Notes under the pieces: model-generated | Database searches by the model: none | Told to the model about the DNA's origin: nothing | What the model saw: the letters and a program-made list of their open reading frames with translations, nothing else | In this document: positions 4,985 through 36,844 of the stretch, piece after piece | Numbering within the stretch: the stretch's first letter is position 1 | Layout of the letters: each line of letters opens with the position of its first letter | NCBI GenBank assembly: GCA_959606905.1 | Contig: CAUHML010000006.1 | Coordinates: 1 to 64,000 of the forward strand | Length of the DNA: 64,000 nt | Direction: 5' to 3' | DNA from: an uncultured Bacteroides sp. | GTDB lineage: Bacteria > Bacteroidota > Bacteroidia > Bacteroidales > Bacteroidaceae | Made by a program: the position numbers and the translations under genes

Positions 4985-5040
4985 AAAAAAGGCGGAAATC
5001 TAATATTATTCTTAAAAAGAAATATTCATATTTCCGCCTT
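4985..5040 (-). terminator. Hairpin with T tract between discoidin gene and M60 gene (PUL1)
   Basis: AAGGCGGAAAT (4989-4999) pairs perfectly with ATTTCCGCCTT (5030-5040), and the loop adds an inner stem (TTCTT/AAGAA). On the minus strand a T run follows (complement of 4985-4990), as in a rho-independent terminator. It would lower M60 expression relative to the upstream susCD genes or act as a processing point. Confidence 0.7.
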
Positions 5041-5099
5041 AGTTGTCAAAAAGACAAAATTTCCCCAATTATTTCAATGTCTGCATTCTACGCTCCTTA

Positions 5100-5969: not shown

Positions 5970-5990
5970 AATAGTCATGCTAAAATTTAA

Positions 5991-7895: not shown

Positions 7896-7906
7896 ACTAT
7901 GTAAAT

Positions 7907-12419: not shown

Positions 12420-12442
12420 CTTTAGTTCATATAGAACTATGG
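12420..12442 (-). repeat. Invertase-type inverted repeat, site B
   Basis: This is the perfect reverse complement of site A, with core 12424-12438. It lies in the FecR1-GH110 intergenic region, outside any gene in the present orientation. The base triplet right after it, in the frame FecR1 would have after inversion, is TAA. Confidence 0.8.
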
Positions 12443-12546: not shown

Positions 12547-12574
12547 GGGATACTGGTTAATTAGTAGTATTTAT
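12547..12574 (+). promoter_or_regulatory. Candidate ECF promoter of GH110
   Basis: GGGATA (12547-12552), then 14 bases, then GTATTTAT (12567-12574). The boxes and spacing match those before FecR1 and FecR3, and the ATG of the GH110 gene is 34 bases downstream. Apart from this and sites A and B, the 12275-12608 interval shows only A/T-rich sequence. Confidence 0.6.
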
Positions 12575-15343: not shown

Positions 15344-15889
15344 CTACCCCATAAATACTATAAACATCGGAAGATTATCTCTAAGGAATTTCAACGCCAT
15401 AGTTATCTGCCGCTCTATCGCTTTCTCGGAAACTGCACATCGTTCCGCTATTTCTTTATTAGTCAAATGTTGTTCCCGGCTCATTTTGAAGATCCGCCGC
15501 CGTTGAGGAGGAAGCTGTTCAATCAACTTATCAATATAGCTTTTTAAATCGGCCGCATCCAACTCATCTTCTATATCGTATGAATTTTCAAGACCTCGCA
15601 GGGCTGTCATTTTAAAATTCAACTCATAAAAATGCCGGCGCGAATAATTAAAGATAATGTTACGGGTAATAATAAAGAGGAAACCGTCAAAGTTCTTGGT
15701 TTCATCAAACATTTCCCTTGATTCCCAAACTTTAACAAAAACATCTTGTACCACTTCAGAAACCTCGAAAGACGAAGTTATATAAAGCTGCGCAAAGTTA
15801 TAGACTTTCAGCCAATAACAGTCATATAGACGCTCAAATGCAATTGTATTTCCAGCCTTTACCTCGGTTAATATCTCTGTTTCATCCAT
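15344..15889 (-). CDS. ECF sigma-70 factor of PUL2/PUL3 (sigma2)
   Basis: This 181-residue ECF sigma factor is paralogous to sigma1. Region 2 is at ~15-90 (YDCYWLKVYNFAQLYITSS, then VVQDVFVKVWES) and region 4 at ~120-170 (LPPQRRRIFKMSREQ, then TNKEIAERCAVSEKAIERQI). The start MDET at 15889 is preferred to MYNM at 15898 because a -7 box lies at 15907-15914, which would put the longer start at or before the transcript start. It sits after the M60 gene of PUL2, as sigma1 does in PUL1. PUL3 has no sigma gene of its own, so sigma2 may serve both PUL2 and PUL3. Confidence 0.88.
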   Translation of the reverse strand: MDETEILTEVKAGNTIAFERLYDCYWLKVYNFAQLYITSSFEVSEVVQDVFVKVWESREMFDETKNFDGFLFIITRNIIFNYSRRHFYELNFKMTALRGLENSYDIEDELDAADLKSYIDKLIEQLPPQRRRIFKMSREQHLTNKEIAERCAVSEKAIERQITMALKFLRDNLPMFIVFMG

Positions 15890-15906
15890 ATTGTACAAAA
15901 ACTATA

Positions 15907-18972: not shown

Positions 18973-18990
18973 TTTAATTTATAAAAGGGG

Positions 18991-19038
18991 AAAAAGAACG
19001 GAGATACAAATATATCCTAGCAATCATTTGTATCTCCG
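18991..19038 (-). terminator. Hairpin between discoidin gene and M60 gene (PUL2)
   Basis: CGGAGATACAAAT (18999-19011) pairs perfectly with ATTTGTATCTCCG (19026-19038); on the minus strand TTCTTTTT follows. It matches the position, but not the sequence, of the hairpin in PUL1. Confidence 0.65.
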
Positions 19039-19081
19039 CTATCAATTCTCTGTCAGAGAACGTCACTTATTTCAAGAGACA

Positions 19082-19999
19082 TTAATCCTCCACTACCACT
19101 GTCTCTCCGGTTTCGGGATCATAGATTGTCGTTGTCACTTGTTTCAATGCCAGTTCCGACAGAGCAATCCAGTTACTTCCGGAAGTTGCAGACAATACTT
19201 TAAACCAGACATATCGAAATGTTTCATCCGAAGAAATTCTGTCCGACATATATGAGGCTTTCCGAGTTCCCGGAAGTTCTGAAAGAGAAGCCAACTTAGT
19301 CGTTCCCGTTTCATTTACATAATCAGGCTTCGATCCCACCAGTTCCTTACTTACCAAAATATCCATTTCTTTCGGATTATCACAGTTTGCGTTATCTCTA
19401 GCAGTATAAGTGAAACTAAAAAAGTTTGTTTCTTCTTTTAAATCTACTACGATATAATGCGGAAAAGGAGTCGAAGCACTCCAAGACATATGGAAGTAAT
19501 TATCAGAAGCAGTACTACCGTCAAACAGATTCTTCAACGGCCCTTCTGATGTTTCCTGAGCATCGGTCCATGCATCTCCTTCTCCCGTTATTTTAAAGTC
19601 TTTAGAAATAGTTACAGTCTGCTTATTTGCTGCCGCTGCCTGTGCAGTAATAGAGCAAATTTCTCCGCCATTACCATCAGCACTGCATGGCTGTAACGTA
19701 AACACAATATCTCCATATCTTTTCAATAAATTATCCACCAATATCGTATCACTATATACACTAGCCAGACGTAAACACTCCTTACCACTTTCCGGCAATG
19801 TATAAGTAACTTTGATATACTTATAATTAGCATTCTCCGGAATCTTCCATTTCAGTTTTACAGCTCCTGCTTTCGCCTCATAAGAGAGTGTACTCGCATC
19901 CAAAGCTGTCGGAGTCGGATAAGATTCATCATCAGAGCAAGCAGTAAAAACCGTCACTCCCAAGATTCCCATTATAATATAAGATAATATTTTTTTCAT
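19082..19999 (-). CDS. Surface lipoprotein with DUF4959-like and discoidin domains, PUL2
   Basis: This 305-residue lipoprotein has a TACSDDE lipobox. An N-terminal fibronectin-like DUF4959-type domain (about 30-130, with the block RLASVYSDTILVDNLLKRYG shared with the PUL1 paralogue) precedes a discoidin domain (about 160-295, NLFDGSTASDNYFHMSW and IALSELALKQV). It is a probable surface glycan-binding partner of SusCD. The ATG at 19999 is preferred; one four codons upstream, nearer the susD stop, is also open. It differs most from its paralogue in the predicted ligand-binding loops, so it may bind another glycan. Confidence 0.8.
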   Translation of the reverse strand: MKKILSYIIMGILGVTVFTACSDDESYPTPTALDASTLSYEAKAGAVKLKWKIPENANYKYIKVTYTLPESGKECLRLASVYSDTILVDNLLKRYGDIVFTLQPCSADGNGGEICSITAQAAAANKQTVTISKDFKITGEGDAWTDAQETSEGPLKNLFDGSTASDNYFHMSWSASTPFPHYIVVDLKEETNFFSFTYTARDNANCDNPKEMDILVSKELVGSKPDYVNETGTTKLASLSELPGTRKASYMSDRISSDETFRYVWFKVLSATSGSNWIALSELALKQVTTTIYDPETGETVVVED

Positions 20000-20019
20000 A
20001 TTAATAGACATTTTATTGA

Positions 20020-21927
20020 TTAATACCCCGGATTATTCACCAATTGTGGGTCTCTATTTATATCAGTAGAAGGAATTGGCAACAAATACTGAGTAGGAGA
20101 TTTAAACTTACGCTCAAAACTGATTTCTGTCAGTTTGGCAAAATCATCAATTGTTGACGCTTTAATATTCATACCTTTCGCTTTTACTCCGAAATATTCC
20201 TCAGCCAGAAGCCAACGACGCATATCCCAGAAATTTTGATTCTCCAGATACAATTCAATCATTCTTTCCTGACGGACAATTTCCCGAAGTTTAGATTGGT
20301 TCAGCGTAGCTATTCCATTCCATGAAGTTTCTAATGTCGGAATTCCTGCACGTTCTCTGATATAATTGATATATGTCTTAGCATTCGTCAAATCATCTGA
20401 TGTTCCAATTTCAATGCAAGCTTCTGCATAAGCCAAATATAAATCTGCTAATCTAATAACCGGCCAAGGATATTGGTTCAAAGTCGTACTGCTCGTCCCC
20501 ACGGTAGTATTGGGATCCACTCCTTTTTTATTCAAATATCCACCAGGACTATAGTTACCATCACGCTGCACGTTAGCTGTACCAATACTACAATTACCTC
20601 CCAAAAGGAAACTACATACCAAGCGTCCACCATCTACATAACCATCGCTGTAAGCCGGATTTGTAGCATTGTTCAATACCTCAAAGTAACCACCCTGAAA
20701 AGCTATCCAAGCATAATAACGAGGCTCACGGTCTAAATTAAAGAGAATTGTTTTCTGACCCTGTGCAGCTTGAGTAGCATGAGCAGCATCTACACTAACC
20801 ACTTCGGTTTTCACTTTCGATGCAAATTCCGGATCTTCATCCCAAGGCAAACCATTCTTTGTATAAAAGCGATTCAACATAGCCCAAGTAGGACAAACAC
20901 CATTCCATGCCCAACCGTCTTTCACAAACGGCAATGATTTATTTTGTACGCCATAACTACCTTCATTCCGAGTTTCGGCAAACAAAACTTCTACGTTACG
21001 TGATTCCCAATCCACCATACCTGTACGCAAACATCTGACAGCTCCTTCTTCAGGGTATGGATTAGCTTCTGACTCATCCAGCCGGTAATCTTTCTTTTTA
21101 TATAAATCATGTCCGTTCAGTACGGCAAGTTCAATAGCCTCTTTACAGGCATCTCTTGCAAGTACCCACTTATTAGCGTCATAAGTAAGCGGCATCAACT
21201 GCACACCATCCTTATCTACAAAGTTGCTATAAAATTTTGAATTACCATTGAATAGCGGCGAAGCTGCATAAAGTCGCATCTTTGCCTTTAATGATTTAGC
21301 AGCGATACTAGTGGCAAGTCCGAACTCGGAAGCCGTAGAACGAACAGCCGGCAAATCATTGGCAGCTTCGTCAAACAAATTACATATCCATTCCACACAT
21401 TCATCATAAGGTGTTCTTCCCAAATATTCTTCCACCGGAGTCGTGATAGAAGGTGTTTCTTTTATCAGCAAAGTAGGACCATAACAACGGGCCATCAAAT
21501 AATGATAATAAGCTATCAGAAATTTAGTCTGTGCCTTATAATCCACTTTCAAATCGTTTCTCAAATCAGCTACCTTGTCAATCCTTTCAAGCAACATATA
21601 ACATTGGCGGATACCCTGGAAGAAAGTGTCCCAATAAGAAATTACAGGAGTTGCCGCAGAATAGTTTCCTTTAGGGAAACCGGCAAACGTTTCATGCTCG
21701 AATGCAGTAATCACCTCATCACCTGTCATCTGGTCCAAGCTACCACTCGATATGTTACACTGCGGCAAATAGGCATAACAAGAATAAAGATAATCTCTCA
21801 CTGCATCTTTATCAGCATAAGTATCCTCGTCAGTAGTTGTTTCATCCGGAACAATGTCCAGATAGTTACAAGAACTATATCCAATTAATGCAACTAGCAA
21901 GAATAAAATTCTATATATTTTTTTCAT
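20020..21927 (-). CDS. SusD/RagB-type lipoprotein, PUL2
   Basis: This 635-residue lipoprotein (lipobox SSCNYLDIVP) has SusD helices: RQCYMLLERI, IAYYHYLMARCYGPTLLI, VRQERMIELYLENQNFWDMRRWLLAEEYF and a C-terminal LLPIPSTDI. It binds substrate over the SusC2 barrel. The ATG at 21927 is used; a second in-frame ATG lies two codons upstream. It is adjacent to susC2 (20 bp) and the discoidin gene (20 bp). Confidence 0.92.
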   Translation of the reverse strand: MKKIYRILFLLVALIGYSSCNYLDIVPDETTTDEDTYADKDAVRDYLYSCYAYLPQCNISSGSLDQMTGDEVITAFEHETFAGFPKGNYSAATPVISYWDTFFQGIRQCYMLLERIDKVADLRNDLKVDYKAQTKFLIAYYHYLMARCYGPTLLIKETPSITTPVEEYLGRTPYDECVEWICNLFDEAANDLPAVRSTASEFGLATSIAAKSLKAKMRLYAASPLFNGNSKFYSNFVDKDGVQLMPLTYDANKWVLARDACKEAIELAVLNGHDLYKKKDYRLDESEANPYPEEGAVRCLRTGMVDWESRNVEVLFAETRNEGSYGVQNKSLPFVKDGWAWNGVCPTWAMLNRFYTKNGLPWDEDPEFASKVKTEVVSVDAAHATQAAQGQKTILFNLDREPRYYAWIAFQGGYFEVLNNATNPAYSDGYVDGGRLVCSFLLGGNCSIGTANVQRDGNYSPGGYLNKKGVDPNTTVGTSSTTLNQYPWPVIRLADLYLAYAEACIEIGTSDDLTNAKTYINYIRERAGIPTLETSWNGIATLNQSKLREIVRQERMIELYLENQNFWDMRRWLLAEEYFGVKAKGMNIKASTIDDFAKLTEISFERKFKSPTQYLLPIPSTDINRDPQLVNNPGY

Positions 21928-21947
21928 AATCACTGGTTATTATATGT

Positions 21948-24900
21948 TTATTTGAATGTAATTTGAACACCTAAGTTGAAAGTTCTCTGAGTAGGATAAG
22001 CCATACCTTTTCCTCCACCCATTTCAGGATCCCACAATTTAAACGGAGAGAATGTCAGCAGATTGGTTCCACTCATATAAACTCTTCCCCATTTAAAGTT
22101 ATAACCAACTTCTGCATTCTTTAATTTCAGGAAAGCGGCGTTTCTCAACCAATAAGTAGAAGATTGCATATTATTATTGTTGTTGTACTTAGTCAAACGG
22201 GGATATTTAGCATTCGGATTCTGATTTTCTTTGCTCCAATAATCCTCTGCAATCCACTCCAACACATTGTTTTTACTTTGAGTACCAAAAGGCTCAAAAC
22301 CACTCATCATCAATGAGACGTTAGCCTGTCCCTGGAAGAATACGGAGAAGTCCCATTTCTTCCAAGTAATAGACGGACCGAAACCATAGATAATTTCAGG
22401 AATAGTAGGATGACCAATGGCGACTCTGTCATCGGAGTCTATCTGTCCATCATAATTACCATTTACATCCGGTTGGTCTACATATTTCACATCACCTGCC
22501 GCTATTGTTATATTACCTAATGTAGAGGTAGGATTATTCGCTATATCAGCTTCGTCAATATATAGTCCGTCAGCTACATATCCCCATAGTGTATTCAAGG
22601 GTTTTCCTACTGCGGACAGAGCCGGACGTATATCAGCGGCCTCATCAGTTTCCATTACACGATTTCTGGCAAACGTAAACGTTCCTTTAAACTGAATTGA
22701 TAGATCTCTATTGATCTGTTTACCATAATCAACCGCCAAATCAACTCCCCAGTTCTTTACCTTGGCAAAGTTTCCATAGATTACTGTCTTGGCTGCTCCC
22801 AGATAATTAGGAATAGAACCTTTTGTAGTAAGGATATTACTTCTGATCTCACGGAATGCGTCAACTGTCAAATTGAGAGAGTTAAATAATTGAATGTCTG
22901 CTCCCACATTCAGCTTATGACCTACCTCCCATGTCATATCTTCATTTTCAAATCTTGAGAATGTAGGGCCATTATGTGACTCTTTATGGCTGCCATAACC
23001 AGTCTGATAGCTGGGCGAATCATTCAATGTAGTGATTCCCATATACAAGAAACGAGTATAAGGTACTTGGTCGTTACCCACCAAACCATAAGAACCGCGA
23101 ATTTTGAAATTAGATACTATATTTCTAATTGGTTCCCAGAATTTCTCCTGACTGATATTCCAACCCACTGACACAGAGGGGAAGAATCCGAAACGATGTC
23201 CTTTTGCGAAGTTCTCAGATCCATTATAACCAGCATTGAACTCAAATAAATAGCGATTGGCATAATCATAAGCAGCACGAACGGCAATACCCATTCTACG
23301 TTTGGGCAAAGAGTTCAATAAACTGGAATTAACATTTGAGTTATATTCATCCTGGTTATACAACAACATACCACCTACATGATGATCGCCAAAAGCACGG
23401 TCATAATTAAAGTAACCTTGAATGTAAAAGCGTCTGTCACCGTCAGTACCAAAGAAAGAATCTAACGTATGATTGGTTGCATCCCCTATTGAATTTACTG
23501 TATAATTATATGTTCCATCTTCATTCTTGGTATAGTCAGTCAACTGGTAAGTATTATAACCCTGTAAACGATATTTGGAATTATAACTCCAGTTCTTAAA
23601 TGAAATCAATGCTTTGAAGCTCAATCCTTTGGTAATAAAATCAAGTTTCTGATCAAAGTCCAGATTGGCAACAACCGTACTCTCGAACGTATCCTTATAT
23701 CCCATACTGGACACAGCAACAGGGTTTACAGGATTATAGTTACCTGCCACAATACTACCCCAACGATACCATTTCTCATCTTCTTGCGGATACATTACAG
23801 GAAAATCGACCGGGTTAGTTCCCATGATAGCCCCAAAAATATTATCTACACCGGCTCCTTCTGAAGTTGTCAACGGACCATGCATATTGTTCAACTGTAC
23901 ATTCAAGTGTAAAGACAAAGTAGAAGTCTTCGACATATGGAAGTCCACATTATTCTGAAATGCATATTTCATATAGTCGATATTATTCTTATAAGAGAAG
24001 AAGTTGCTGGAACGGTCTTTCAGCATACCTGTTTCATGATTGACATTCACATTCATAAAGTAAGTAATCTTGGAAGTACCTCCGCGAACATTGAAGTTAG
24101 CTTTCTGATTGAAGGTCGCGTTCTTGAATACTTCGTCGTACCAATCCACATTCGGGTAAATGTATGGATTCAAGTTATTCGCCGTACCATAGATTTTATC
24201 ATCTGAATACAGTGCATCTCCGGTACCTTGATTAGTAACGGCTTCATTATACATTCTCATAAACGTCACTCCGTCCACCGTTTTCGGGCGCTTAATGGGG
24301 GTATTGACGTAAGCCTCTACACGCACACCGATAATCGGTTTTTCAAGGTCGGAACCCGACTTGGTTTTAATGATAAGTACACCATTCGCACCGCGTGTAC
24401 CGTACATGGCGGAAGCAGTTGCATCTTTCAGTACAGAAAAACTTTCAATGACTTCCGGATCAAGTGCATTCAAATCCGCTTTTGAGATTTCAACTCCGTC
24501 AAGTACAATAAGCGGAGTAGCACTGTTCATGGTAGCAACACCACGGATAAAGAAATCCGCACCGTTATTTCCAGGCTCACCACTACGTTGATAAGAGATC
24601 ACACCGGAAAGGCGACCGGCAAAAGCCGTAGAAAGATTAGCAGTCGGTACTTTCAAATCTGCCGGACGTACAGACTGGATAGAACCTGTTACTGTTTCTT
24701 TCTTCTGTCCTGTTCCGAAGGCCGTTACGACTACTTCATCCAGCTGTTCTGCATCGTCAGATAAAGTAACACTCAGTACTTTCTGGTTTCCTACTTTGAT
24801 CTCCTTAGAAGAATATCCGATAAAAGAGATAACCAGAACATCACTGGAAGTCGCCATAACCTCGAACTTACCATCTACATCGGTAGTCGTACCGGTTTTT

Positions 24901-25322
24901 GTTCCTTTAATCATAACAGATGCCCCAGGAATGGGATCTCCGGTGGCCGACTCGGTCACTACACCAATAATCTTGTGTTTGGCCGCTTGTTGAGTAAATT
25001 CGCCTTCAACTTTTAAAATAACTTCGTTACCTTTAATAGTATAACTGACTCCACTCCCTTTGAATACTTCGTTAAGCACTTCATTAATTGTACCCGAACA
25101 ATTAATATTTCTAGTTTTTGTGTTTTTCAGGTCTGCTGCATTGTAGAAAAAAGTATAACTACTGTTTTTTTCAATAAGCTGAATAGCCTGTTTAATAGTG
25201 ATTGACTGCCCTTTTACTGAAACTTGTCCCTGAGCTCCAAGGACAGATAACGGATAAAAAAGCAAAGTGAGGACGATATACTTCAAATATCGCCTGCAAC
25301 TAGAGATTCTTTGTTTTCTCAT
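21948..25322 (-). CDS. SusC/RagA-type TonB-dependent transporter with STN domain, PUL2
   Basis: This protein has 1124 residues from the ATG at 25322; this start aligns with the MRK starts of SusC1 and SusC3, and eight extra upstream codons are open. It has a signal peptide to GAQG, an STN domain (~35-100, GQSITIKQAIQLIEKNS), a carboxypeptidase-D-like domain, a plug (VVVTAFGTGQKK, ATASAMYGTRGANGV) and a barrel ending GVQITFK. It imports glycan or glycopeptide and signals to a FecR protein through STN. Here the neighbouring FecR gene is truncated, so signalling should need the inverted DNA orientation. Confidence 0.94.
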   Translation of the reverse strand: MRKQRISSCRRYLKYIVLTLLFYPLSVLGAQGQVSVKGQSITIKQAIQLIEKNSSYTFFYNAADLKNTKTRNINCSGTINEVLNEVFKGSGVSYTIKGNEVILKVEGEFTQQAAKHKIIGVVTESATGDPIPGASVMIKGTKTGTTTDVDGKFEVMATSSDVLVISFIGYSSKEIKVGNQKVLSVTLSDDAEQLDEVVVTAFGTGQKKETVTGSIQSVRPADLKVPTANLSTAFAGRLSGVISYQRSGEPGNNGADFFIRGVATMNSATPLIVLDGVEISKADLNALDPEVIESFSVLKDATASAMYGTRGANGVLIIKTKSGSDLEKPIIGVRVEAYVNTPIKRPKTVDGVTFMRMYNEAVTNQGTGDALYSDDKIYGTANNLNPYIYPNVDWYDEVFKNATFNQKANFNVRGGTSKITYFMNVNVNHETGMLKDRSSNFFSYKNNIDYMKYAFQNNVDFHMSKTSTLSLHLNVQLNNMHGPLTTSEGAGVDNIFGAIMGTNPVDFPVMYPQEDEKWYRWGSIVAGNYNPVNPVAVSSMGYKDTFESTVVANLDFDQKLDFITKGLSFKALISFKNWSYNSKYRLQGYNTYQLTDYTKNEDGTYNYTVNSIGDATNHTLDSFFGTDGDRRFYIQGYFNYDRAFGDHHVGGMLLYNQDEYNSNVNSSLLNSLPKRRMGIAVRAAYDYANRYLFEFNAGYNGSENFAKGHRFGFFPSVSVGWNISQEKFWEPIRNIVSNFKIRGSYGLVGNDQVPYTRFLYMGITTLNDSPSYQTGYGSHKESHNGPTFSRFENEDMTWEVGHKLNVGADIQLFNSLNLTVDAFREIRSNILTTKGSIPNYLGAAKTVIYGNFAKVKNWGVDLAVDYGKQINRDLSIQFKGTFTFARNRVMETDEAADIRPALSAVGKPLNTLWGYVADGLYIDEADIANNPTSTLGNITIAAGDVKYVDQPDVNGNYDGQIDSDDRVAIGHPTIPEIIYGFGPSITWKKWDFSVFFQGQANVSLMMSGFEPFGTQSKNNVLEWIAEDYWSKENQNPNAKYPRLTKYNNNNNMQSSTYWLRNAAFLKLKNAEVGYNFKWGRVYMSGTNLLTFSPFKLWDPEMGGGKGMAYPTQRTFNLGVQITFK

Positions 25323-25381
25323 GCTTCGACTGATTAGATTAGACATTCGATTAAGTTTATAATAAAATATTTATATTGATA

Positions 25382-26107
25382 TTAATGAATAATAATTTGT
25401 TCATTGTGTGTTTCTATGGTCAAATTGAGACTAAAACAGATTTTATCAAGTACATCATCCAAAGTTTCGTCATAACGGATACTCCCACTAAACAATGCTT
25501 TTTTTCCTAAATTCCTCTTTAAGACTATATTTGTATTATACATCTGATTGACTGTTTCAATCAGTTGAGTCAACGGAACATCTTCAAAGTTATATCTTCC
25601 ATTTTCCCAACTGATATTTGAGATATTCTCTATTTGTGTTTGTGCATTATCTACATTATAAGTCACTTTCTGAAGTGGTTGCATGACTATTTTCTTCCCG
25701 GTAGATTCAACATTAAATTCTATCTTTCCATGAAACAGCGTAATTTCATTCTGCTTTATATCATCTTGCTTGACAAGAAAGCAAGTTCCCTTCACTTCTA
25801 TAAAAGCTTTATTAATGTGTACTTGAAAAGTACTTCCCTCGTGCTTATAAACTTCAAATAATGAATTACCACTCAACCAGACTTTTCTGTCTTTATTAAA
25901 ATCTTTTGCAAATTGAATAGAACTTCCGGGCTTCATCCAGACCTTGGTGCTATCCGGCAAAATATACATCATACTTTGTTGGGCTTCAATCCTTACCAAC
26001 TCATTCATTTCCGCTTTATTATCACCTAAAATCATCCAAAGTCCACCTATCAACAATAGGATAGCTACTGAAGCGGCAGCCAAATATGGCCTTAGTTCTA
26101 CAAGAAC
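25382..26107 (-). pseudogene. FecR anti-sigma gene lacking its 5' part (FecR2), predicted silent phase
   Basis: The open frame begins right after an in-frame TAA (complement of 26108-26110) with Val-Leu-Val-Glu-Leu-Arg, then the transmembrane helix (LAAASVAILLLIGGLW), the FecR beta domain and a DUF4974-type end. The ~75-residue cytoplasmic anti-sigma domain, an ATG and a promoter are all missing. A TTG at 26081-26083 would give 233 residues but cuts into the membrane helix. The first codons fall exactly on an invertase-type site (26094-26108) whose inverted partner lies at the same codons of FecR3. Inversion would fuse the FecR3 anti-sigma domain to this frame without a shift, restoring a protein of about 310 residues. 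It is therefore better read as the OFF phase of a switch than as a decayed gene. Confidence 0.8.
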
Positions 26108-26108
26108 T
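26090..26108 (+). repeat. Invertase-type inverted repeat, site C (FecR2)
   Basis: The core AGTTCTACAAGAACT (26094-26108) fits AGTYYYN4GDACT. The 19-bp arm matches site D in inverted orientation with one mismatch. Confidence 0.8.
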
Positions 26109-26167
26109 TAGTAATACATCTCACATCTTTTTTATTTTTTTTCGCATTAATCAATTAACTACATTGC

Positions 26168-26184
26168 TAATTATCAGATAATTA
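26168..26184. repeat. 17-bp palindrome upstream of FecR3 promoter
   Basis: TAATTATC-A-GATAATTA is a perfect palindrome with one central base, 47 bp upstream of the candidate ECF promoter. It could be a regulator-binding site; no partner is known. Confidence 0.4.
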
Positions 26185-26230
26185 CAGTTTACGTTCAAAA
26201 AAACTTTCACTTTTTTACAAAGTCGATGTG

Positions 26231-26258
26231 GGGTTAGAAAGAGCTGGTGTGTATTTAT
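26231..26258 (+). promoter_or_regulatory. Candidate ECF promoter of PUL3 (FecR3)
   Basis: GGGTTA (26231-26236), 14 bases, GTATTTAT (26251-26258). The similarity to the FecR1 promoter extends beyond the boxes (TGTRGGG before, GTGTATTTATA at the second box). The FecR3 ATG is 46 bases downstream. The element lies on the invertible segment, so it can serve only PUL2 or PUL3 at one time. Confidence 0.62.
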
Positions 26259-26304
26259 AGTATATGAGCAACAATAGAGTTTAAAACCAACAAGGTAGAA
26301 TAGA

Positions 26305-27243
26305 ATGGATAAGGTCGAAAGGAAAAGATTAATCAAAAGTCTGCTGTCAGGTAGACTCTCCAAAAAGCAACGGAAAGCCTTTGCTGACTTGGAATCGGTA
26401 GATATAGAAATAAAAAAACAATGGAATGAATCTGGAAACAGAGCTGCTGATATGGCAATAAAAGAACAAATATGGAAAAAGGTAAAAACTAAATGTGAAT
26501 ACAGGAAAAATAACAGAGTTCTTGTAGAACCAAGGTGGTATTTTGCCGCTGCCTCAATTGCACTTTTATTGACAATAGGCGGATTCTGGTTAACGTTTAA
26601 AGGCGACAAGATAGCTAATGAGCTTATTAAAATTACAGCTCAGCAGAACCAGATGTACACTCTTCCGGATAGCAGCAAAGTATGGATGGAGCCCGGAAGT
26701 TCTATTCAATATACAAAAGCTTTTAACAAAGAAAGAAAAGTCTGGTTGAGTGGTAATTCATTATTTGAAGTTTATAAGCATGAAGGAAGTACTTTCCAAG
26801 TATATATCGACAAGGCTTTTATTGAAGTAAAAGGAACTTGCTTCCATATCAAACAAACCGATGCCGAAAAGAACGAAATTACATTGTTTCGTGGAAAGAT
26901 AGAATTTAATGTTGAATCCACCGGACAAAAAACAGTAATGAAGCCTTTACAAAGAGTGATATACAATCCGCGTAATGCTGAAATGAGAGTAGAACAGATT
27001 ACTAATATAAAATGGGAAAACGGAAAATATAACTTCACGGATATTCCCTTGCAAGAGCTTATTAGTATCATCAATCAAATGTACAACTCCGACGTCACAT
27101 TAGCAAAAGGTATCAATCATGAATCAGCATTTACCGGAAGCATTCGCTATGACGAACCATTGGAAGATGTAGTCAACAAAATTTGTTTCACATTAAACCT
27201 GAATAAAGAAGAACATGCAAATAAAATCATTATAAAAAAATAA
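26305..27243 (+). CDS. FecR-type anti-sigma factor (FecR3), complete
   Basis: This 312-residue protein has a cytoplasmic anti-sigma domain (1-75, very basic: DKVERKRLIKSLLSGRLSKK), a transmembrane helix (79-98), a FecR beta domain (VWMEPGSSIQYTKAF, EVYKHEGSTFQVYI, VKGTCFHI) and a DUF4974-type C-terminus (VNKICFTLNLN). It should hold an ECF sigma until SusC3 is loaded. No sigma gene accompanies PUL3; sigma2 is the likely partner. An invertase-type site (26517-26531) spans codons 71-76, exactly between the anti-sigma domain and the membrane helix, as in FecR1. Confidence 0.9.
   Translation: MDKVERKRLIKSLLSGRLSKKQRKAFADLESVDIEIKKQWNESGNRAADMAIKEQIWKKVKTKCEYRKNNRVLVEPRWYFAAASIALLLTIGGFWLTFKGDKIANELIKITAQQNQMYTLPDSSKVWMEPGSSIQYTKAFNKERKVWLSGNSLFEVYKHEGSTFQVYIDKAFIEVKGTCFHIKQTDAEKNEITLFRGKIEFNVESTGQKTVMKPLQRVIYNPRNAEMRVEQITNIKWENGKYNFTDIPLQELISIINQMYNSDVTLAKGINHESAFTGSIRYDEPLEDVVNKICFTLNLNKEEHANKIIIKK
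26517..26535 (-). repeat. Invertase-type inverted repeat, site D (FecR3)
   Basis: The plus strand reads AGTTCTTGTAGAACC then AAGG. It is the inverted match of site C except for one base (C for T at the end of the core), so it deviates from AGTYYYN4GDACT only in the last position. Confidence 0.75.
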
Positions 27244-27278: not shown

Positions 27279-30200
27279 ATGAGAAAAATTCAAATTTCTT
27301 ACAAGCAACGATATCTGAAGTATATCGTATTGCTGTTGCTTTTTTACCCGCTCAACATCCTAGGAGCACAAGGAGTAATCTCAGTAAAAGGGCAAGCAAT
27401 GACTATCAAACAAGCAATCCAGCTAATTGAAAAAAACAGTAATTACACATTTTTCTACAATGCTGCAGACTTGAAAAACACAACCAACAAAAATCTAAAT
27501 TGTGAAGGGACTATTGAAGAAGTTTTAAAAGAAGTCTTCAAAGGTAGCGGAATCACCTACATGATCAAAGGTAACGAGATCATATTAAAGGTAAACAAAG
27601 AGGAAGCCGCACAGCAGCAACCCAAAAAGAAACGTACCGTTACGGGTACGGTGGTAGACGCTGAAAATGGCGATCCGGTTATCGGTGCTACTGTTGTAGT
27701 GAAAGGACAGAAGGACGGAGTAATTACCGATTTGGATGGTAATTTCACGATTGCTATCAGCGGCTCGAAAGCACAGCTGGAATTCAGTTACATCGGTTAC
27801 AGAAAGAAAACAGTCGATGTAGGCGATCTTGGTGTCATCAACGTAAAGATGGAATCAGACAACCAACTGCTGAGTGAAGTTGTAGTAGTAGGTGCCGGTA
27901 CACAGAAGAAAGTCAGTGTAACAGGGTCAATCACCAGTGTGAAAGGTCTGGAACTGAAAGCTCCAAGTTCTTCGCTTACCACCTCCTTTGCGGGAAAACT
28001 GGCAGGTGTTATTTCTATGACTTCGACCGGCGAACCGGGTGCCGCTTCCGAATTCTACATTCGCGGTGTGAGTACCTTTGGCGGACGAGCCACTCCTTTA
28101 ATACTTTTGGATGATGTAGAAATTTCTACGGCAGACCTGAATAATATTCCGGCTGAAACGATCGAAAGTTTCTCTATTTTGAAAGATGCTTCTGCGACCG
28201 CTATCTACGGTGCCCGTGGTGCCAACGGCGTTATGCTCATCACTACCAAGACCGGTAAAGAAAACGAGAAAACCAGAATTAACGTCACGGTTGAGAACTC
28301 TTTCAATAAACCGATGAACTTCCCCGACTTTGTAAATGGTGCCACTTGGATGGAAATGTACAACGAAGCCCAATTGACACGTAATCCGGGAGCGACCCCA
28401 AAATATTCGCAACTTGACATCGACAACACACGCAACCAAGTTAATCCTTACATTTATCCGGATGTACAATGGAAAGACGTCATCTTCAAAAACATGAATA
28501 TGAATCAGCGTGCCAATGTCAACATCTCAGGCGGTGGTTCAAAAGCATCTTATTATATGAGCTTGCAAGCCAATCACGATACAGGTTTGCTGGATACAAA
28601 GAAAGTATATTCGTATAATAATAATATAAACAATTGGGGATATAATTTCCAAAACAATATCTCTTACAAAATAACATCTACAACTAAAATCGATTTACAC
28701 ATGAACGCCCAGATTCGTAACAAGAAGGGACCGAACTACAGTACTTCCGATTTATTCGCTCAGATGTTGTATTGTAATCCTATTAACTTCCCCGTTACTT
28801 TCCCGGCACAACCCGGAGACACACATATCCGTTTTGGTAATGCTATATGGACAGGATCTTCGGTACGTACCAACCCGTATGCTTATATGTTGAGTTCATT
28901 CAAGGAATATAATGAGAACACACTCAATACTTCTTTAAAAATCAACCAAAAACTTGATTTCGTAACTAAGGGGTTAAGCGTACAAGCAATGGTCAATTGG
29001 AAGAATTGGGCTTCATCTTCCTACAACCGGACGATCGAACCTTATTATTATGGTATTAAAGGAGGAAGTTATAACCCTTCAAATCCTACTGATTATGAAA
29101 TTGAACGCCTGGGAACATCAGGAACTGACTATCTGAAAACATCAGATATAAGCAAAGCTTCCGACCAGACTTTCTATCTGGACGCCCGCGTGAATTATGA
29201 CCGCCAGTTCAATCTACATCATGTAACAGGAATGCTGATGTATATGCAACGTGAATATCGTAGTAGCGTACTACCCGAACGCAATCAAGGATTCTCAGGA
29301 CGTTTTACTTACGACTACGGTCAGCGCTATCTGGTAGAACTGAATTTCGGTTATAACGGAACAGAACGTCTGGCCAAGAAAGAACGTTTCGAATTCTTCC
29401 CCGCCGTATCTCTAGGCTGGGTAATCAGTAACGAAAAGTTCTTTGAACCGATGACCAAGTATATAGATAACCTGAAAATCAGAGGATCTTATGGTCTGGT
29501 AGGTAGTGACGAAACCGGACTTTCTGCCGGTGCACAACACTTCCTGTACATCGACCAGGTATCGCTCAATAACATAGGCTTCACTACCGGTGTAGATATG
29601 AACTATACCTTATATGGTCCTTTAGTAACCAATTATGCAGTTGTTAATGGCGGTTGGGAACGCGTAAAGAAACTGGATATAGGTATCGACCTCGAATTAT
29701 TCCGCCAGTTGACTATTACTGCCGATTATTTTAATGAGAAACGTTACAATATCCTGCTCCACCGCGAAGCATGGCCGGAATCTCTTGGATATTATACAGC
29801 TAAACCTTGGAGCAATAAAGGTAAAGTTGATAACTGGGGTATTGAACTAAGTGTAAACTGGAGAAAAGAATTCACAAAAGATTTATATGTAGATTTCCGT
29901 GGAAACTTCACATATACTGAAAACAAATATGTCAACCTGGATGAACCGGTTTATCCGTATGTATGGAAAACATCTACAGGCAAACCGTTAAGCCGCACAA
30001 CCGGATATATCGCCCAAGGATTATTCAGCAGTCAGGAAGAAATCGATAATAGCCCGACACAGAATCTTGGTAGTACTGTTAAACCGGGAGACATAAAATA
30101 CCGTGATGTAAACGGAGATGGTAAAATAGATGGCAGTGACCAAGTAATGATCTCTCCTTATGGAACTACCCCCCGCATCCAATATGGTTTGGGAATGAAT

Positions 30201-30614
30201 GTAACCTATAAAAAATTCGATTTCGGTGTATTCTTCAATGGGTCGGCTAAACGCACTATCATGATTAGCGGTATTTCACCATTCGGCCAAAGTGACTATA
30301 ATGTCATGCAATTCATTGCAGATGACTACTGGTCTGAGTCAAATCCCAATCCAAATGCTAAATATCCGCGCTTAGGATTGACTAGTTCACAAACAGCCAA
30401 TAATACAGTAGCTAGTACTTACTGGATGCGTAACGGTAATTTCATCCGTTTCAAGACACTGGAACTGGGATATAAATTCAAATATGGACGCGTATACCTG
30501 AACGGTGACAATATAGCCGTATTCAGTCCGTTCAAGCTATGGGACCCAGAACTATCATGGAATGCTTATCCTTTGCAGCGTACATTCAACATCGGAGTAC
30601 AACTTAATTTCTAA
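27279..30614 (+). CDS. SusC/RagA-type TonB-dependent transporter with STN domain, PUL3
   Basis: This 1111-residue protein has a signal peptide to GAQG, an STN domain (~33-100, GQAMTIKQAIQLIEKNS), a carboxypeptidase-D-like domain (VTGTVVDAENGDPVIGATV), a plug (VVVVGAGTQKK, SILKDASATAIYGARGANGV) and a barrel ending GVQLNF. It follows FecR3 by 35 bp. Compared with SusC1 and SusC2, the barrel loops diverge more than the N-terminal signalling part, so it probably takes a different substrate but uses a similar FecR contact. Confidence 0.95.
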   Translation: MRKIQISYKQRYLKYIVLLLLFYPLNILGAQGVISVKGQAMTIKQAIQLIEKNSNYTFFYNAADLKNTTNKNLNCEGTIEEVLKEVFKGSGITYMIKGNEIILKVNKEEAAQQQPKKKRTVTGTVVDAENGDPVIGATVVVKGQKDGVITDLDGNFTIAISGSKAQLEFSYIGYRKKTVDVGDLGVINVKMESDNQLLSEVVVVGAGTQKKVSVTGSITSVKGLELKAPSSSLTTSFAGKLAGVISMTSTGEPGAASEFYIRGVSTFGGRATPLILLDDVEISTADLNNIPAETIESFSILKDASATAIYGARGANGVMLITTKTGKENEKTRINVTVENSFNKPMNFPDFVNGATWMEMYNEAQLTRNPGATPKYSQLDIDNTRNQVNPYIYPDVQWKDVIFKNMNMNQRANVNISGGGSKASYYMSLQANHDTGLLDTKKVYSYNNNINNWGYNFQNNISYKITSTTKIDLHMNAQIRNKKGPNYSTSDLFAQMLYCNPINFPVTFPAQPGDTHIRFGNAIWTGSSVRTNPYAYMLSSFKEYNENTLNTSLKINQKLDFVTKGLSVQAMVNWKNWASSSYNRTIEPYYYGIKGGSYNPSNPTDYEIERLGTSGTDYLKTSDISKASDQTFYLDARVNYDRQFNLHHVTGMLMYMQREYRSSVLPERNQGFSGRFTYDYGQRYLVELNFGYNGTERLAKKERFEFFPAVSLGWVISNEKFFEPMTKYIDNLKIRGSYGLVGSDETGLSAGAQHFLYIDQVSLNNIGFTTGVDMNYTLYGPLVTNYAVVNGGWERVKKLDIGIDLELFRQLTITADYFNEKRYNILLHREAWPESLGYYTAKPWSNKGKVDNWGIELSVNWRKEFTKDLYVDFRGNFTYTENKYVNLDEPVYPYVWKTSTGKPLSRTTGYIAQGLFSSQEEIDNSPTQNLGSTVKPGDIKYRDVNGDGKIDGSDQVMISPYGTTPRIQYGLGMNVTYKKFDFGVFFNGSAKRTIMISGISPFGQSDYNVMQFIADDYWSESNPNPNAKYPRLGLTSSQTANNTVASTYWMRNGNFIRFKTLELGYKFKYGRVYLNGDNIAVFSPFKLWDPELSWNAYPLQRTFNIGVQLNF

Positions 30615-30640
30615 TATATGAACCTAAATACGAGATAAAT

Positions 30641-32572
30641 ATGAGACTTATAGATAAAATAAAAAAGATGGGTAGTCTGTTAATACTCTCTACGTGTTGC
30701 CTGACATCTTGCAATTTCCTAGATGTAGTACCTCCCGAACAAGCAGGTCTGGGAGATGCCGTTAAAAAGCCGGAAAGTACACTTGGCTTCCTCTACTCAT
30801 GCTATGCAGGAATCAAAGGTTCATCCAACCCAATTACTTATACCGGAATGGAAGCTGCATCTACTGATGAATTTGTATTCCCGGAATTATGGGGACACAG
30901 CGGACAGCGTGCCGGTTGGGGACTGCTGACTCCGGAATCTCCCGGAGACTGGAAATGGGGTAATATCTACCGCTATATCGGACAATGTTATCTGTTTCTG
31001 TCCCAATTACCAAATGCCCTCGATGTATCGGAAGTACAAAAAAGAGAATGGACTGCCGAAGCCAATTTCCTAATTGCTTACTATCATTTCCTGATATTAG
31101 AATACTATGGCCCGTGCCCTATCACTGATTCATACATTGATATGGATACACCGAACAATGAATATCACGGACGTTATCACTTTGATTACGTAACAAGCTG
31201 GATTTCCATGAAACTGGACGAAGCAGCTAAAGATCTTCCGGCCTCCCGTATCGGTTCGGAATGGGGACGTGCAACTTCCACTATTGCAAAAGCAGTAAAA
31301 GCACGCTTGTTGCTCTATGCAGCTTCTGACTTATGGAATGGGAAATTCCCTTATCCGGATTGGAAAAACAAGAATTTCGAAACACCGGGATATGGGAAAG
31401 AATTAGTCAGCCAGGTTTATGATCCCGATAAATGGGAACGCGCACTGACTGCTTGTAAAGACGCACTGGAATGGGCAGAAGGAGAAGGCGGATGCGGACT
31501 GATGACTACTAAAGAAAGTGCAATCCTTATGGGTAATCAAGGACTTAATCTAGGAGAGCTTGATGTTCCCGTAGACGGAGTTACCGAAGAATTCAAAAAA
31601 CATGTTTATTTGATGCGTTATCTCGTAACTAGCCGTTACTCGGATGGTAACCGTGAAATGATATGGGGACTTGCAGATGACGGCGGTGTAGTAATGGCTT
31701 CTTTACCAGTACACGTGGTAAAAGTAGACGGAGGCCCTTGGAGAAGTGGATATAGCGGCTACTCTCCTTTATTAAACAGTGTAGAGCGATTCTATACCAA
31801 AGAAGGAGAATTACCTCGAATTGCTGCCAATAAAGGGACTTTCGCAGAAGAAGATTCATGGTATGAATCTGCAGGAAGAAGCAATGCGGATATTATCAAG
31901 TTAAATACCAACCGCGAACCACGATTCTATGCATGGCTTTCATTTGACGGAGACCAATACAGCCCACGAATTTCAGGCGGCAAACCTCTGGTACTCAATC
32001 TTAAGAAAGGCGAAGCACAAGGTTGGAACAGAACTGAATTCGCCCGTGATCACTGTGTCACAGGATACATGTCAAAGAAATTTATCCAACCCGACCTGAA
32101 CTGGGGTACAAACTGGAGTAACAACGAAAAAAGCTATCCACGTCCTCTCTTCCGCTTGGCAGAACTTTACCTGAGTGTAGCCGAATGTTTGGCAGCTTTA
32201 GACAGACCCAAAGAAGCACTTACGTATCTGAACGTAGTTCGTGAACGTGCCGGTATACCAGACGTAACAGAAGAAATGCTGAATGATATGCCGGCCATGG
32301 ATTGGATACGCAACGAACGTTTTGTAGAACTATGGGGAGAAGGTCTACGCTATTACGACGCACGACGTTGGATGATTGCCCCTGAAGTTTTTGCAGCTGG
32401 CGTACGTAAAGGGTTGAATATGGAACAAGTAGAAGAACCTACTTTCGAAGAGTTAAATCAACCTGTTATTGTAAATCAAGATTACAAATGGGAAAACCGT
32501 ATGTATCTGGCACCTATATTTGCTAACGAAACATACAAGAATCCACAAATGGTTCAAGCACCCGAATATTAA
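30641..32572 (+). CDS. SusD/RagB-type lipoprotein, PUL3
   Basis: This 643-residue lipoprotein (TSCNFLDVVPPE after the leader) has SusD helices: IGQCYLFLSQLPNALDV, IAYYHFLILEYYGPCPI, LSVAECLAALDRPKEAL, IRNERFVELWGEGLRYYDARRWMI. It is the substrate-binding lid of SusC3. The region around residues 290-420 has little similarity to SusD1 and SusD2, in line with another ligand. Confidence 0.92.
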   Translation: MRLIDKIKKMGSLLILSTCCLTSCNFLDVVPPEQAGLGDAVKKPESTLGFLYSCYAGIKGSSNPITYTGMEAASTDEFVFPELWGHSGQRAGWGLLTPESPGDWKWGNIYRYIGQCYLFLSQLPNALDVSEVQKREWTAEANFLIAYYHFLILEYYGPCPITDSYIDMDTPNNEYHGRYHFDYVTSWISMKLDEAAKDLPASRIGSEWGRATSTIAKAVKARLLLYAASDLWNGKFPYPDWKNKNFETPGYGKELVSQVYDPDKWERALTACKDALEWAEGEGGCGLMTTKESAILMGNQGLNLGELDVPVDGVTEEFKKHVYLMRYLVTSRYSDGNREMIWGLADDGGVVMASLPVHVVKVDGGPWRSGYSGYSPLLNSVERFYTKEGELPRIAANKGTFAEEDSWYESAGRSNADIIKLNTNREPRFYAWLSFDGDQYSPRISGGKPLVLNLKKGEAQGWNRTEFARDHCVTGYMSKKFIQPDLNWGTNWSNNEKSYPRPLFRLAELYLSVAECLAALDRPKEALTYLNVVRERAGIPDVTEEMLNDMPAMDWIRNERFVELWGEGLRYYDARRWMIAPEVFAAGVRKGLNMEQVEEPTFEELNQPVIVNQDYKWENRMYLAPIFANETYKNPQMVQAPEY

Positions 32573-32593
32573 TCTTTAAACTGTTTACAAATT

Positions 32594-34006
32594 ATGAAAC
32601 AAATATTATACTCACTTCTTTTCTTGGGTTCACTCGCCACATTTACCGGATGTGAAGAAGCTGACTACCAAGAACTGATACCCCAAGAGTACAACAAGAT
32701 TCTTTATTTAAAGAATAGTGGACAGAACGATCTGGTACTCTTCAACGATGGACAACAAGTAAAATATTCTATTACTGTAGTCAAATCCGGAAGCGATCCT
32801 TCCGCTACGGCCCAAGTCAGACTAAGCACATTATCTCAGACCGAAATTGATAATGAATCACGTTACAAAGGCAACAACTATGTTGTATTGAACAGTGATT
32901 GTTATACTTTCCGGAATAAGGATATTAGTTTCGAATCCTCAGATACCTATAAAATAGAAGAGTTTACATTAAATCCGGAAAAAATAACAGAACAGGTGGA
33001 AGCGGAAGCTAATGCCAACAGCATCTTTATTTTGCCTATCCGCTTAACCAGTAAAACTGATTCTGTCAATTTTGAGCAAAGAGACTTAATTCTTAAACCT
33101 CAAGTGAAACAGCTAGGTATCAAATTTGAGAAATCATCCACAATGATAGACCTGGGAATTAATAAGGAAGAAGAAATTATTGCTGAAATCAAAGTCTCCA
33201 TGACATCCGGAGTCATCAACCAGTGGAATTTTACGGCCGGTATAACAGCCAGCACTGACCAAACAGAAATAGATGCATACAATACGGCCCAAGGAACAGA
33301 TTACAAAGCAGTTCCGGAAGGAGCATTTTATCAACTGGAAGATTTGATATTCAGTTCCGGAATTAGTGAAAGCGTCGGGGTTTTAGTAGTAGACCGTTCT
33401 AAATTGACTAAAGGGGCGACTTATTTAATTCCACTACAACTTGAACAAAGTGAAGATCTTGAAACTATTACCTCGGACACTAAAAAACATTATGTAATCT
33501 TGAAGTATATGTTCGATATGGTGGATGATAAGATTGACTTGACAGATAAAATTACTGATCCGTTGAGCTGTGGAGCTAATTCACTAAGTTTTCTTTACGA
33601 TGACGATACCAGTACAGCTTATGAAACCAAATATCAATCAGCAAGCGGAAATGCTCAGTATGGACAACCTATTGACATTAATTTAGGTAAAGAAATGAGA
33701 GCTATCATGTTTGAGTATATTACAAAAGGTTGGAATAACTCAGGACCTAAAGTAATTAAGTTATTTACTAGTAATGACGGAACAAACTGGAATGAGTTTG
33801 TCGAAATAAACGAAGGATTACCAACATCAAGTGAAGGAGGAAAAACATATACCTCAAAAGTATTTACGTCGCCTAATCCTTTCAGCTATCTAAGATTGAC
33901 AGTAATGGAGTCTTATTTAGGAAATTGTATAGGAGAATTCCAGCCAGGTAGTACTTCATGGTATGCATGTTGGGGAATGGCCGAACTTAAATTATGGGGA
34001 ATGTAA
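32594..34006 (+). CDS. Surface glycan-binding lipoprotein with DUF1735-like repeats and discoidin domain, PUL3
   Basis: This 470-residue lipoprotein has lipobox FTGCEEAD. Two DUF1735-type beta domains at ~30-170 and ~175-305 (each with the pattern of strand-forming VxIxxS and a YxxxPEGAFY/YVVLNSDCYTF segment) precede a discoidin domain at ~325-470 (SFLYDDDTSTAYETKYQ, WNNSGPKVIKLFTSNDGTNW, CWGMAELKLWG). It takes the place of the DUF4959 lipoproteins of PUL1 and PUL2. A role as surface glycan-binding protein beside SusCD is inferred from position and domains; no catalytic motif is visible. Confidence 0.8.
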   Translation: MKQILYSLLFLGSLATFTGCEEADYQELIPQEYNKILYLKNSGQNDLVLFNDGQQVKYSITVVKSGSDPSATAQVRLSTLSQTEIDNESRYKGNNYVVLNSDCYTFRNKDISFESSDTYKIEEFTLNPEKITEQVEAEANANSIFILPIRLTSKTDSVNFEQRDLILKPQVKQLGIKFEKSSTMIDLGINKEEEIIAEIKVSMTSGVINQWNFTAGITASTDQTEIDAYNTAQGTDYKAVPEGAFYQLEDLIFSSGISESVGVLVVDRSKLTKGATYLIPLQLEQSEDLETITSDTKKHYVILKYMFDMVDDKIDLTDKITDPLSCGANSLSFLYDDDTSTAYETKYQSASGNAQYGQPIDINLGKEMRAIMFEYITKGWNNSGPKVIKLFTSNDGTNWNEFVEINEGLPTSSEGGKTYTSKVFTSPNPFSYLRLTVMESYLGNCIGEFQPGSTSWYACWGMAELKLWGM

Positions 34007-34022
34007 TCACTAAAGTTAATAC

Positions 34023-34061
34023 ATAGGAAACGTTCTTATTATTTATAGAGCGGTTTCCTAT
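34023..34061 (+). other. Hairpin between surface lipoprotein and M60 gene (PUL3)
   Basis: ATAGGAAAC (34023-34031) pairs perfectly with GTTTCCTAT (34053-34061). No T tract follows, so it is more likely an mRNA processing or stability element than a terminator. Its position matches the hairpins before the M60 genes of PUL1 and PUL2. Confidence 0.55.
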
Positions 34062-34077
34062 ACAAATCCAATAACTT

Positions 34078-36738: not shown

Positions 36739-36763
36739 GTTGCATTTCACGATAATTATTTAT

Positions 36764-36796
36764 AAAAATGGCAGGTAATATATGCCTGCCATTTTT
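36764..36796 (+). terminator. Terminator-like hairpin between the two PUL3 M60 genes
   Basis: AAAAATGGCAGG (36764-36775) and CCTGCCATTTTT (36785-36796) are perfect complements with a 9-base loop and an ending T run. The symmetrical A/T flanks make it potentially active in both directions. The downstream M60 gene should be expressed less, or from its own promoter. Confidence 0.75.
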
Positions 36797-36844
36797 ATTA
36801 CCTTTATAACGCACAATCTATATCAATAACACAATCAGACTTAT

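Follow-up and report, generated by a model that had tools for sequence, protein, structure and literature searches.

The first 64,000 nucleotides of contig CAUHML010000006.1 (GenBank assembly GCA_959606905.1, forward strand), from an uncultured Bacteroides sp. and hereafter called the window, hold three polysaccharide utilization loci (PUL1, PUL2, and PUL3), each with its SusC and SusD genes and a FecR-type sigma regulator (Table 1). FecR2 and FecR3, the regulators of PUL2 and PUL3, stand head to head, and between them lies the subject of this report, segment C/D, which carries a promoter-like element of the extracytoplasmic function (ECF) type together with the codons of a FecR N-terminal domain (N-domain). 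A sister segment, A/B, is found at FecR1 and PUL1.

Table 1. Coordinates of the features discussed (positions in the window)
Feature	Position	Strand	Remarks
Invertible segment C/D	26090..26535		promoter-like element and FecR N-domain, 19-bp inverted repeats at ends; 446 bases
Recombination site C	26090..26108		joined to FecR2
Recombination site D	26517..26535		in FecR3, directly before membrane helix
ECF-type promoter-like element GGGWTA-N14-GTRTTTA	26231..26257	+	inside segment C/D
FecR3, complete sigma regulator	26305..27243	+	312 aa; N-domain 26305-26520
FecR2 C-part	25382..26089	-	membrane helix and periplasmic domains, N-domain absent here; in-frame TAA 26108-26110
47-nt perfect inverted-repeat arm	25842..25888		common to FecR2 C-part and FecR3 C-part; partner 26734-26780
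PUL2	16087..25346	-	SusC2, SusD2, F5/8-DUF4959 protein, M60 peptidase
PUL3	27279..39244	+	SusC3, SusD3, BT_3987-like protein, two M60 peptidases
ECF sigma factor sigma2 (TIGR02985)	15344..15898	-	past end of PUL2; relatives directly face the switch in other species
Sister invertible segment A/B	12042..12438		promoter-like element and FecR1 N-domain; inverted in G001
ECF-type promoter-like element	12311..12337	-	inside segment A/B
Fixed copy of promoter-like element	12547..12573	+	upstream of GLAA-B gene
FecR1	11333..12274	-	313 aa from ATG (ORF list: TTG at 12292); complete in window, disconnected in G001
PUL1	2066..11290	-	SusC1, SusD1, F5/8 protein, M60 peptidase
ECF sigma factor sigma1	1340..1978	-	downstream of last PUL1 gene
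GLAA-B type glycosidase gene	12609..14456	+	faced by segment A/B when PUL1 is disconnected

The FecR2/FecR3 Locus and its Two Orientations

According to Pfam, domains PF04773 and PF16344 are over cut-off in FecR1, FecR3, and the remaining C-terminal part (C-part) of FecR2. The FecR periplasmic signaling domain finds its best fold matches in 4m0h (E 3e-15) and PupR (6ovk, E 7e-11), with moderate TM-scores (0.35-0.53) and a predicted local distance difference test (pLDDT) score of 71 for the model. The N-domain has no Pfam match; four helices are predicted ahead of the membrane segment at a pLDDT of about 50-63. SusC1, SusC2, and SusC3 each contain an STN domain (PF07660).

Site C (reverse complement AGTTCTTGTAGAACTAAGG) and site D (AGTTCTTGTAGAACCAAGG) are identical in 18 of 19 bases and fall at the same codon position of the two head-to-head FecR genes. 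When 19-nt inverted pairs with at most one mismatch and 300-700 nt apart were counted, one was present in 26000-26650 and none in 300 mononucleotide shuffles; by this measure the pair is no chance product. Site C fits the motif AGTYYYN4GDACT fully, on both strands, and site D is one base off. The B. fragilis recombinase Tsr0667 is said to invert SusC/SusD loci at this motif, the consensus being that given in an earlier note on this DNA.

In the window, the sole start that the open reading frame (ORF) finder offers for FecR2 is a TTG at 26083, which lies within the membrane-helix codons. No copy of the segment's promoter-like element is found ahead of FecR2 in the present orientation, where other promoter types are possible, and since only 35 bp separate FecR2 from SusC2, there is little space for a separate PUL2 promoter. 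Inversion of 26090-26535 in silico yields an in-frame FecR2 of 312 aa and reduces FecR3 to a 224-aa ORF that begins at a TTG. The earlier note had described most of this arrangement, and the repeats, the completeness of FecR3, and the fit of both sites to the motif were all found as it had said. Its account of FecR2 as lacking a start, an anti-sigma domain, and a promoter stands for the N-domain and the in-frame stop; as regards the promoter it holds for the promoter-like element only, and a TTG start is on offer. Its proposal that strand exchange would fuse FecR3 to FecR2 in frame (VLVE to LRPYLAAAS), with one promoter and one anti-sigma domain serving two PULs, agrees with the in-silico inversion, with the one promoter-like element and one N-domain in the sequence, and with an exact junction in a database protein.

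This protein was recovered when the in-silico FecR3-FecR2 hybrid was used as a query against 5.8 billion proteins. P0002 (312 aa; 341 contigs, the longest of 4,570,941 bases) covers the whole hybrid at 99.7% identity (311/312 residues), running as FecR3 through VLVE and as FecR2 from LRPYLAAAS. The sole difference is a leucine, that of site C, at the mismatch residue, which places the crossover within the 14 bases AGTTCTTGTAGAAC before the mismatch. Another 28 proteins (P0003-P0030) cover the full hybrid at 96-99%, a few of them with traces of FecR3 in the C-part. The partial products of both states are also present: P0055 (568 members) is the 233-aa FecR2 remnant of the present state and P0122 (216 members) the 224-aa FecR3 remnant predicted for the flipped one, both at 99%. 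The FecR3 cluster of the present orientation, P0056 (98% to FecR3), has 803 members; member and contig counts differ in kind, and no orientation ratio is derivable from them. Both orientations of C/D thus have products in protein databases, and the inverted one, which the earlier note had predicted, was found in public data as P0002, at C/D by protein products only.

At segment A/B, which goes beyond the single segment of the earlier note, the inversion is seen in genomic DNA. The nearest genome, G001, is 99.3-99.7% identical to the window over two main blocks, and 12038-12442 aligns there in the reverse direction (98.8%), such that the FecR1 N-domain points away from its C-part. The sites of this segment (12042-12056 and 12424-12438) fit AGTYYYN4GDACT fully, and 23-nt perfect inverted arms bound 12038-12442. 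The gene on the far side, GLAA-B, is presumably GH110-like, going by its name.

Related Switches, Sites, and Promoters in Other Genomes

Fourteen switches were analyzed, two in the window and 12 in relatives, each genome copy being counted once; the loci came from a genome-contig scan (16 loci) and from genome searches. The relatives' switches belong to Bacteroides congonensis (2), B. faecis, Bacteroides sp. GM023 (2), B. acidifaciens, B. neonati, G099 (2), and two B. fragilis genomes plus the similar G094, these last three not being independent. FecR matches at E 1e-30 occur in 46 of 158 genomes; regions were drawn from 8 genomes and, earlier, from 5 (G001, G010, G002, G013, and G015), a sample that gives no genus frequency. 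Loci at which no site pair was found were not counted as switches (P. vulgatus L057, L059, L060, and L062; L114 of G120; L113 of G095), and in the last of these a site-like sequence lies in FecR, whose partner site was not found there. The metagenome-assembled fragments L053/L061 (the same as L118/L119) and B. acidifaciens C/D (L058/L064), all cut by contig ends, were left out, the distant loci L066 and L067 lay outside the switch analysis, and the disconnected A/B of G001 was treated as an uncounted extra copy of window A/B. The tally of a pattern scan for site pairs in 149 genomes (1/149, G074) was discarded, as the gap it allowed, 370-400, is too long even for the A/B pair of G001 (367).

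A FecR of 310-313 aa is encoded in at least one orientation by 13 of the 14 switches; in the fourteenth (L065, B. neonati), the C-part is itself broken into two pieces that start 1.9 kb apart. The N-domain and C-part are connected in the stored genome in two of the 12 single-PUL switches (window A/B and B. acidifaciens) and disconnected in the other ten. For two of these ten, database proteins of similar sequence have the connected form: P0090 (99.0% over 312 aa to B. congonensis C/D) and P0107 (97.8% over 312 aa to B. faecis), a match of sequence and not of source species. For the other eight, no connected protein above 66% was found in a protein set drawn around FecR2/FecR3 only. When disconnected, the N-domain would form a protein of 78-98 aa in 12/12 single-PUL switches, with the stop at most seven residues past the shared site codons in 11/12 (counted by eye). 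The dual switch C/D of the window makes a free N-domain fragment in neither orientation. Two further observations concern segments of the C/D type. The segments of B. congonensis (L052, 8888-10032) and G099 (L111, 8717-9935) are 1.1-1.2 kb long and hold an apparent inserted element with nested inverted repeats containing CCTATCACC. B. acidifaciens contigs L017 (18592-19206) and L021 (19381-19536) end in or near a switch of this type, as they would if mixed orientations had been assembled.

An ECF sigma gene, a neighbor that the earlier note does not mention for relatives, lies across the segment, divergent from FecR, in 7/12 relatives' switches (B. congonensis C/D, B. faecis, GM023 C/D, B. neonati, and the three B. 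fragilis-group genomes), and in B. acidifaciens the N-domain also faces a sigma gene, the FecR C-part being on a separate contig. The same divergent order occurs at loci that have no site pair (P. vulgatus, G120, L059/L060/L062), which suggests that the switch originated by gain of one site inside FecR, at codons preceding the membrane helix, and of another between sigma and FecR. Sigma2 is 73-82% identical to the sigma factors of B. congonensis, B. acidifaciens, B. faecis, and GM023 and 56-60% identical to those of the B. fragilis group and B. neonati; in the window it is 10 kb from the switch, as PUL2 intervenes. G099 has the gene order of the window and a sigma2 at 88%, but a different PUL occupies the slot, its SusC being 71% identical to SusC3, with no closer match to SusC2. 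The two B. fragilis genomes have only one switched PUL each, and it is similar to PUL2 (SusC 75-76%). The slot next to the switch therefore appears to have been filled by PULs more than once. The idea of the two-PUL arrangement as one inherited unit was dropped, since the second PUL of G099 resembles PUL3 rather than PUL2. One of the 12 relatives' switches has a second PUL on the far side, unlike the PUL2 of the window. A GLAA-B gene is faced by window A/B and by 3/4 relatives' A/B-type switches (B. acidifaciens, the fourth, is outside this comparison).

The site sequence AGTTCTNNNNGAACT occurs at 89 places in 8 genomes, and 40 of these form 20 pairs within 2.5 kb, in six of the eight genomes (G004 and G018 have none). 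In every one of the 20 pairs the two sites are inverted and share the same core, as expected of strand exchange that requires equal spacers, and the cores differ from pair to pair within a genome, except for two identical pairs in G019; some recur across genomes. In G001, three further close pairs and the single lone site inspected, out of five apart from C/D, are in or within 1.7 kb of SusC-family genes (L068-L071, at 513790, 963534, 4475455, and 3899823), and at L069 the listed SusC-like reading frame starts exactly at the site. A lone site-like sequence in the window, AGTTCTACAAGTATT (54406-54420, one mismatch to the consensus), lies upstream of a DUF3575 gene at 54588. G120, which is site-poor and has a non-invertible FecR, gave 3 and 3 hits vs. 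3 and 2 in a reversed control. Among the 33 PF00589 matches of G001, regions for ten were drawn and four served as queries for candidate invertases, XerC/XerD-like ones being outside this test. L122 (314 aa) was rejected, as G094 and G146, both site-rich, have no match to it at E 1e-60, and the matches in the site-rich G015 and G137 are only 41% alike; L125, L126, and L127 were rejected as patchy among site-bearing genomes. The distribution of sites would fit one invertase with dispersed targets, of the Tsr0667 kind, and the site motif is the one feature that points to Tsr0667 itself.

Strict matches to GGGWTA-N13-16-GTRTTTA number three in the window vs. 0.04 expected, one in each invertible segment and one fixed copy before GLAA-B. 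In 11 segments, TGTRGGGWTAR-like and GTGTATTTA-like elements precede the FecR start with a spacing of about 14-15 bases, the B. fragilis group and B. neonati having a looser form. The sigma genes mostly have a promoter box of another kind, TAnnTTTG, summarized as the Bacteroides -7 consensus in PMC4747536. This box lies 16-29 bases before the listed start of 14/17 sigma genes (several of the 17 being near-identical), and in a control it was present anywhere in 200 bases of shuffled upstream regions in 502/3400 trials. As most sigma genes have a fixed box of their own, we infer that sigma2 is made in either state of the switch and that it is the switched promoter that depends on sigma.

Proposed Mechanism and Alternative Explanations

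Taken together, these comparisons make it highly probable that 26090-26535 is a site-specific inversion switch that hands a promoter and a sigma-binding domain to PUL2 or PUL3. The parts of this reading differ in strength: on the sequences compared, the inversion itself is as good as shown; its use in choosing between PUL2 and PUL3 is the best-supported reading; and mutually exclusive expression of the two PULs in single cells would be a consequence. The segment would supply one ECF-type promoter, presumably used by an ECF sigma factor, and would encode one cytoplasmic domain that binds sigma. A putative invertase with dispersed sites of the Tsr0667 kind would act at the 19-bp sites and connect both, with the reading frame kept, to the membrane and periplasmic part of FecR3 (as here) or of FecR2. 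The joined FecR would be the first gene of its SusC/SusD operon, so that only the joined PUL would be transcribed and signal from its own SusC, and because the N-domain is identical, both fusions should answer to the same ECF sigma factor, most likely sigma2, going by gene position only. The description of the window as "PUL2 off, PUL3 on" would accordingly mean competence for expression.

Several points weigh against this reading. The case as a whole is built on sequence comparison, and internal promoters could still express part of PUL2. G001 has C/D in the orientation of the window (25900-26700 is identical), and P0002 is seen as a protein sequence only, which leaves another rearrangement possible for individual contigs. 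With one mismatch allowed, AGTYYYN4GDACT has 23 matches in the window vs. 19.0 expected, and 22/100 shuffles reach 23. Exact AGTTCTNNNNGAACT places that have no exact partner nearby make up 49/89. The invertase was not found, and the four tyrosine recombinase candidates tested do not track the sites. Neither sigma1 nor the sigma genes of L060 and L065 have the TAnnTTTG box. Lastly, chimeric FecR proteins imply that exchange occurs inside the C-parts too, or that assemblies are chimeric.

The chimeras bear on an improbable alternative, in which each strain has a fixed orientation, the difference having arisen through rare homologous recombination between the FecR arms, and no dedicated switch exists. 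FecR2 and FecR3 do share long inverted arms (25536-26005 and 26617-27086; 470 nt, 75% alike) that include the 47-nt perfect stretch. Fifteen proteins (P0034, P0036-P0038, and P0040-P0050) combine the FecR3 N-domain with the front of FecR2 and the end of FecR3, and P0031 and P0001 are reverse chimeras, P0001 having a longer duplication in a shared stretch. By eye, the parent changes within stretches that both proteins share (for instance in P0034, P0036, and P0031), such as the one encoded by the 47-nt arm. As P0036 is found on 9 contigs of up to 537,087 bases, homologous recombination likely made these proteins, assembly chimeras being also possible, and exchange of this sort probably occurs in addition to inversion. 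In contrast, P0002 changes parent within the 19-bp site and is FecR2 thereafter, and the same kind of site recurs at the same codon in other species. On the far side of A/B there is no partner FecR, so the inversion in G001 did not come from FecR arms. Far less probable still is that FecR2 is a decayed or truncated gene, with PUL2 dead or independently promoted and the repeat a relic. The missing N-domain and the upstream in-frame TAA of the window are what such decay would leave, but the FecR2 C-part is an open frame with both Pfam domains, and the intact fusions represented by P0002 on its 341 contigs and by the 28 full-length proteins refute a dead FecR2 as the general state.

A more serious, though still doubtful, alternative holds that the flip alters sigma control more than PUL choice, the choice in the window being a late by-product; the disconnected orientation of single-PUL switches would then make a free sigma-binding fragment beside a sigma gene. 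The sigma gene facing the far side in seven of the relatives' switches and the prompt end of the disconnected N-domain in all 12 single-PUL switches speak for it, as do E. coli FecR N-terminal fragments of 59-116 residues, which, as outlined in PMC9249621, activate FecI without a signal. The same outline has a Pseudomonas FpvR fragment inhibiting instead, the sigma genes mostly have promoter boxes of their own, and the dual switch of the window releases no free fragment. Since such fragments act on sigma factors in either direction, the disconnected state may itself play an active part in regulation. Carried further, and put forward tentatively as a possibility slightly ahead of the last, the switch might be a DNA-encoded bypass of regulated proteolysis, as the free fragment is about the size that proteolysis would release. 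Inversion would then exchange a regulator that is tethered to the membrane and senses glycan for a soluble form, and back again, the soluble form setting the sigma regulon, GLAA-B with its fixed promoter-like copy included, to a signal-independent or silent state. In the lineage of the window, a second PUL would have come between switch and sigma gene, giving a two-PUL selector, and the different PUL at this place in another species would make the site an acceptor slot for PUL cassettes.

Relation to Known Inversion Systems

The domain layout of the window is that of FecI/FecR/FecA-type signaling (PupR, FoxR, and FpvR), with a FecR N-terminal part, a hydrophobic stretch, and a periplasmic signaling domain, SusC partners with an STN domain, and ECF sigma genes. 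Unlike in that type, the sigma-binding end can evidently be detached by inversion and is common to two sensors, and the relatives have the sigma gene and FecR in divergent order. Joining of one constant part to alternative variable parts by inversion is known from Hin and hsdS, and the Rci shufflon of R64, in outline, does likewise. In contrast to such systems of alternative ends, at C/D a constant regulatory N-domain, with its promoter, would choose between two whole operons. The invertible capsule promoters of Bacteroides (Mpi) resemble the present case in that promoter inversion leads to phase variation; as summarized, they move promoter regions, whereas here at least one of the two sites lies within a coding region, and inversion splices the protein in addition to moving its promoter.

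The closest likeness is to the Tsr0667 inversions of B. fragilis (Nakayama-Imaohji et al. 2009), whose summaries (PMC4747536, PMC11852207) describe short dispersed inverted-repeat sites beside SusC/SusD genes and a shuffling of SusC/SusD clusters with different promoters. Sites of this sort and a FecR switch like the present one both occur in genomes of the B. fragilis group, and a locus of the C/D type may be among the "nine other invertible regions" mentioned for Tsr0667. The difference is that C/D would move a promoter together with the sigma-binding end of FecR, fused in frame to one of two regulators. In the nutrient-receptor shufflons of B. thetaiotaomicron, as outlined in PMC12548429, inversion varies the expressed receptors through a single transcription factor; no FecR fusion is named in that outline, and overlap is possible. 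Summaries elsewhere place some invertible regions in or near SusC/SusD systems (PMC10939037) and an inverton group near TonB/SusD genes (PMC11892184). Among the papers that literature searches brought up, none describes an invertible FecR N-domain, as judged by title and the start of the abstract, and earlier inversion lists may include these loci (Cerdeno-Tarraga 2005; Kuwahara 2004; Nakayama-Imaohji 2009; Jiang 2019; Milman 2023; Chanin 2024). As judged from these comparisons, the switch belongs to the known invertible SusC/SusD systems of Bacteroides, but moves the functional end of a regulator along with the promoter.

For the annotation of such genomes, it follows that a FecR gene called at 224 or 233 aa need not be a pseudogene, as it can belong to a switch in its other state. 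For the organism, sensing itself would be phase-variable: the output end of a sensor is moved by inversion, and siblings of the same genome would prepare for different targets. Host glycoproteins are likely the food, given the M60 peptidases in the PULs and the adjoining GLAA-B glycosidase. On this reading, PUL2 and PUL3 should be alternatives even for a cell that meets both inducers, and the switches would provide a natural experiment on the effect, activating or blocking, that a free FecR N-domain has on its sigma factor in Bacteroides.

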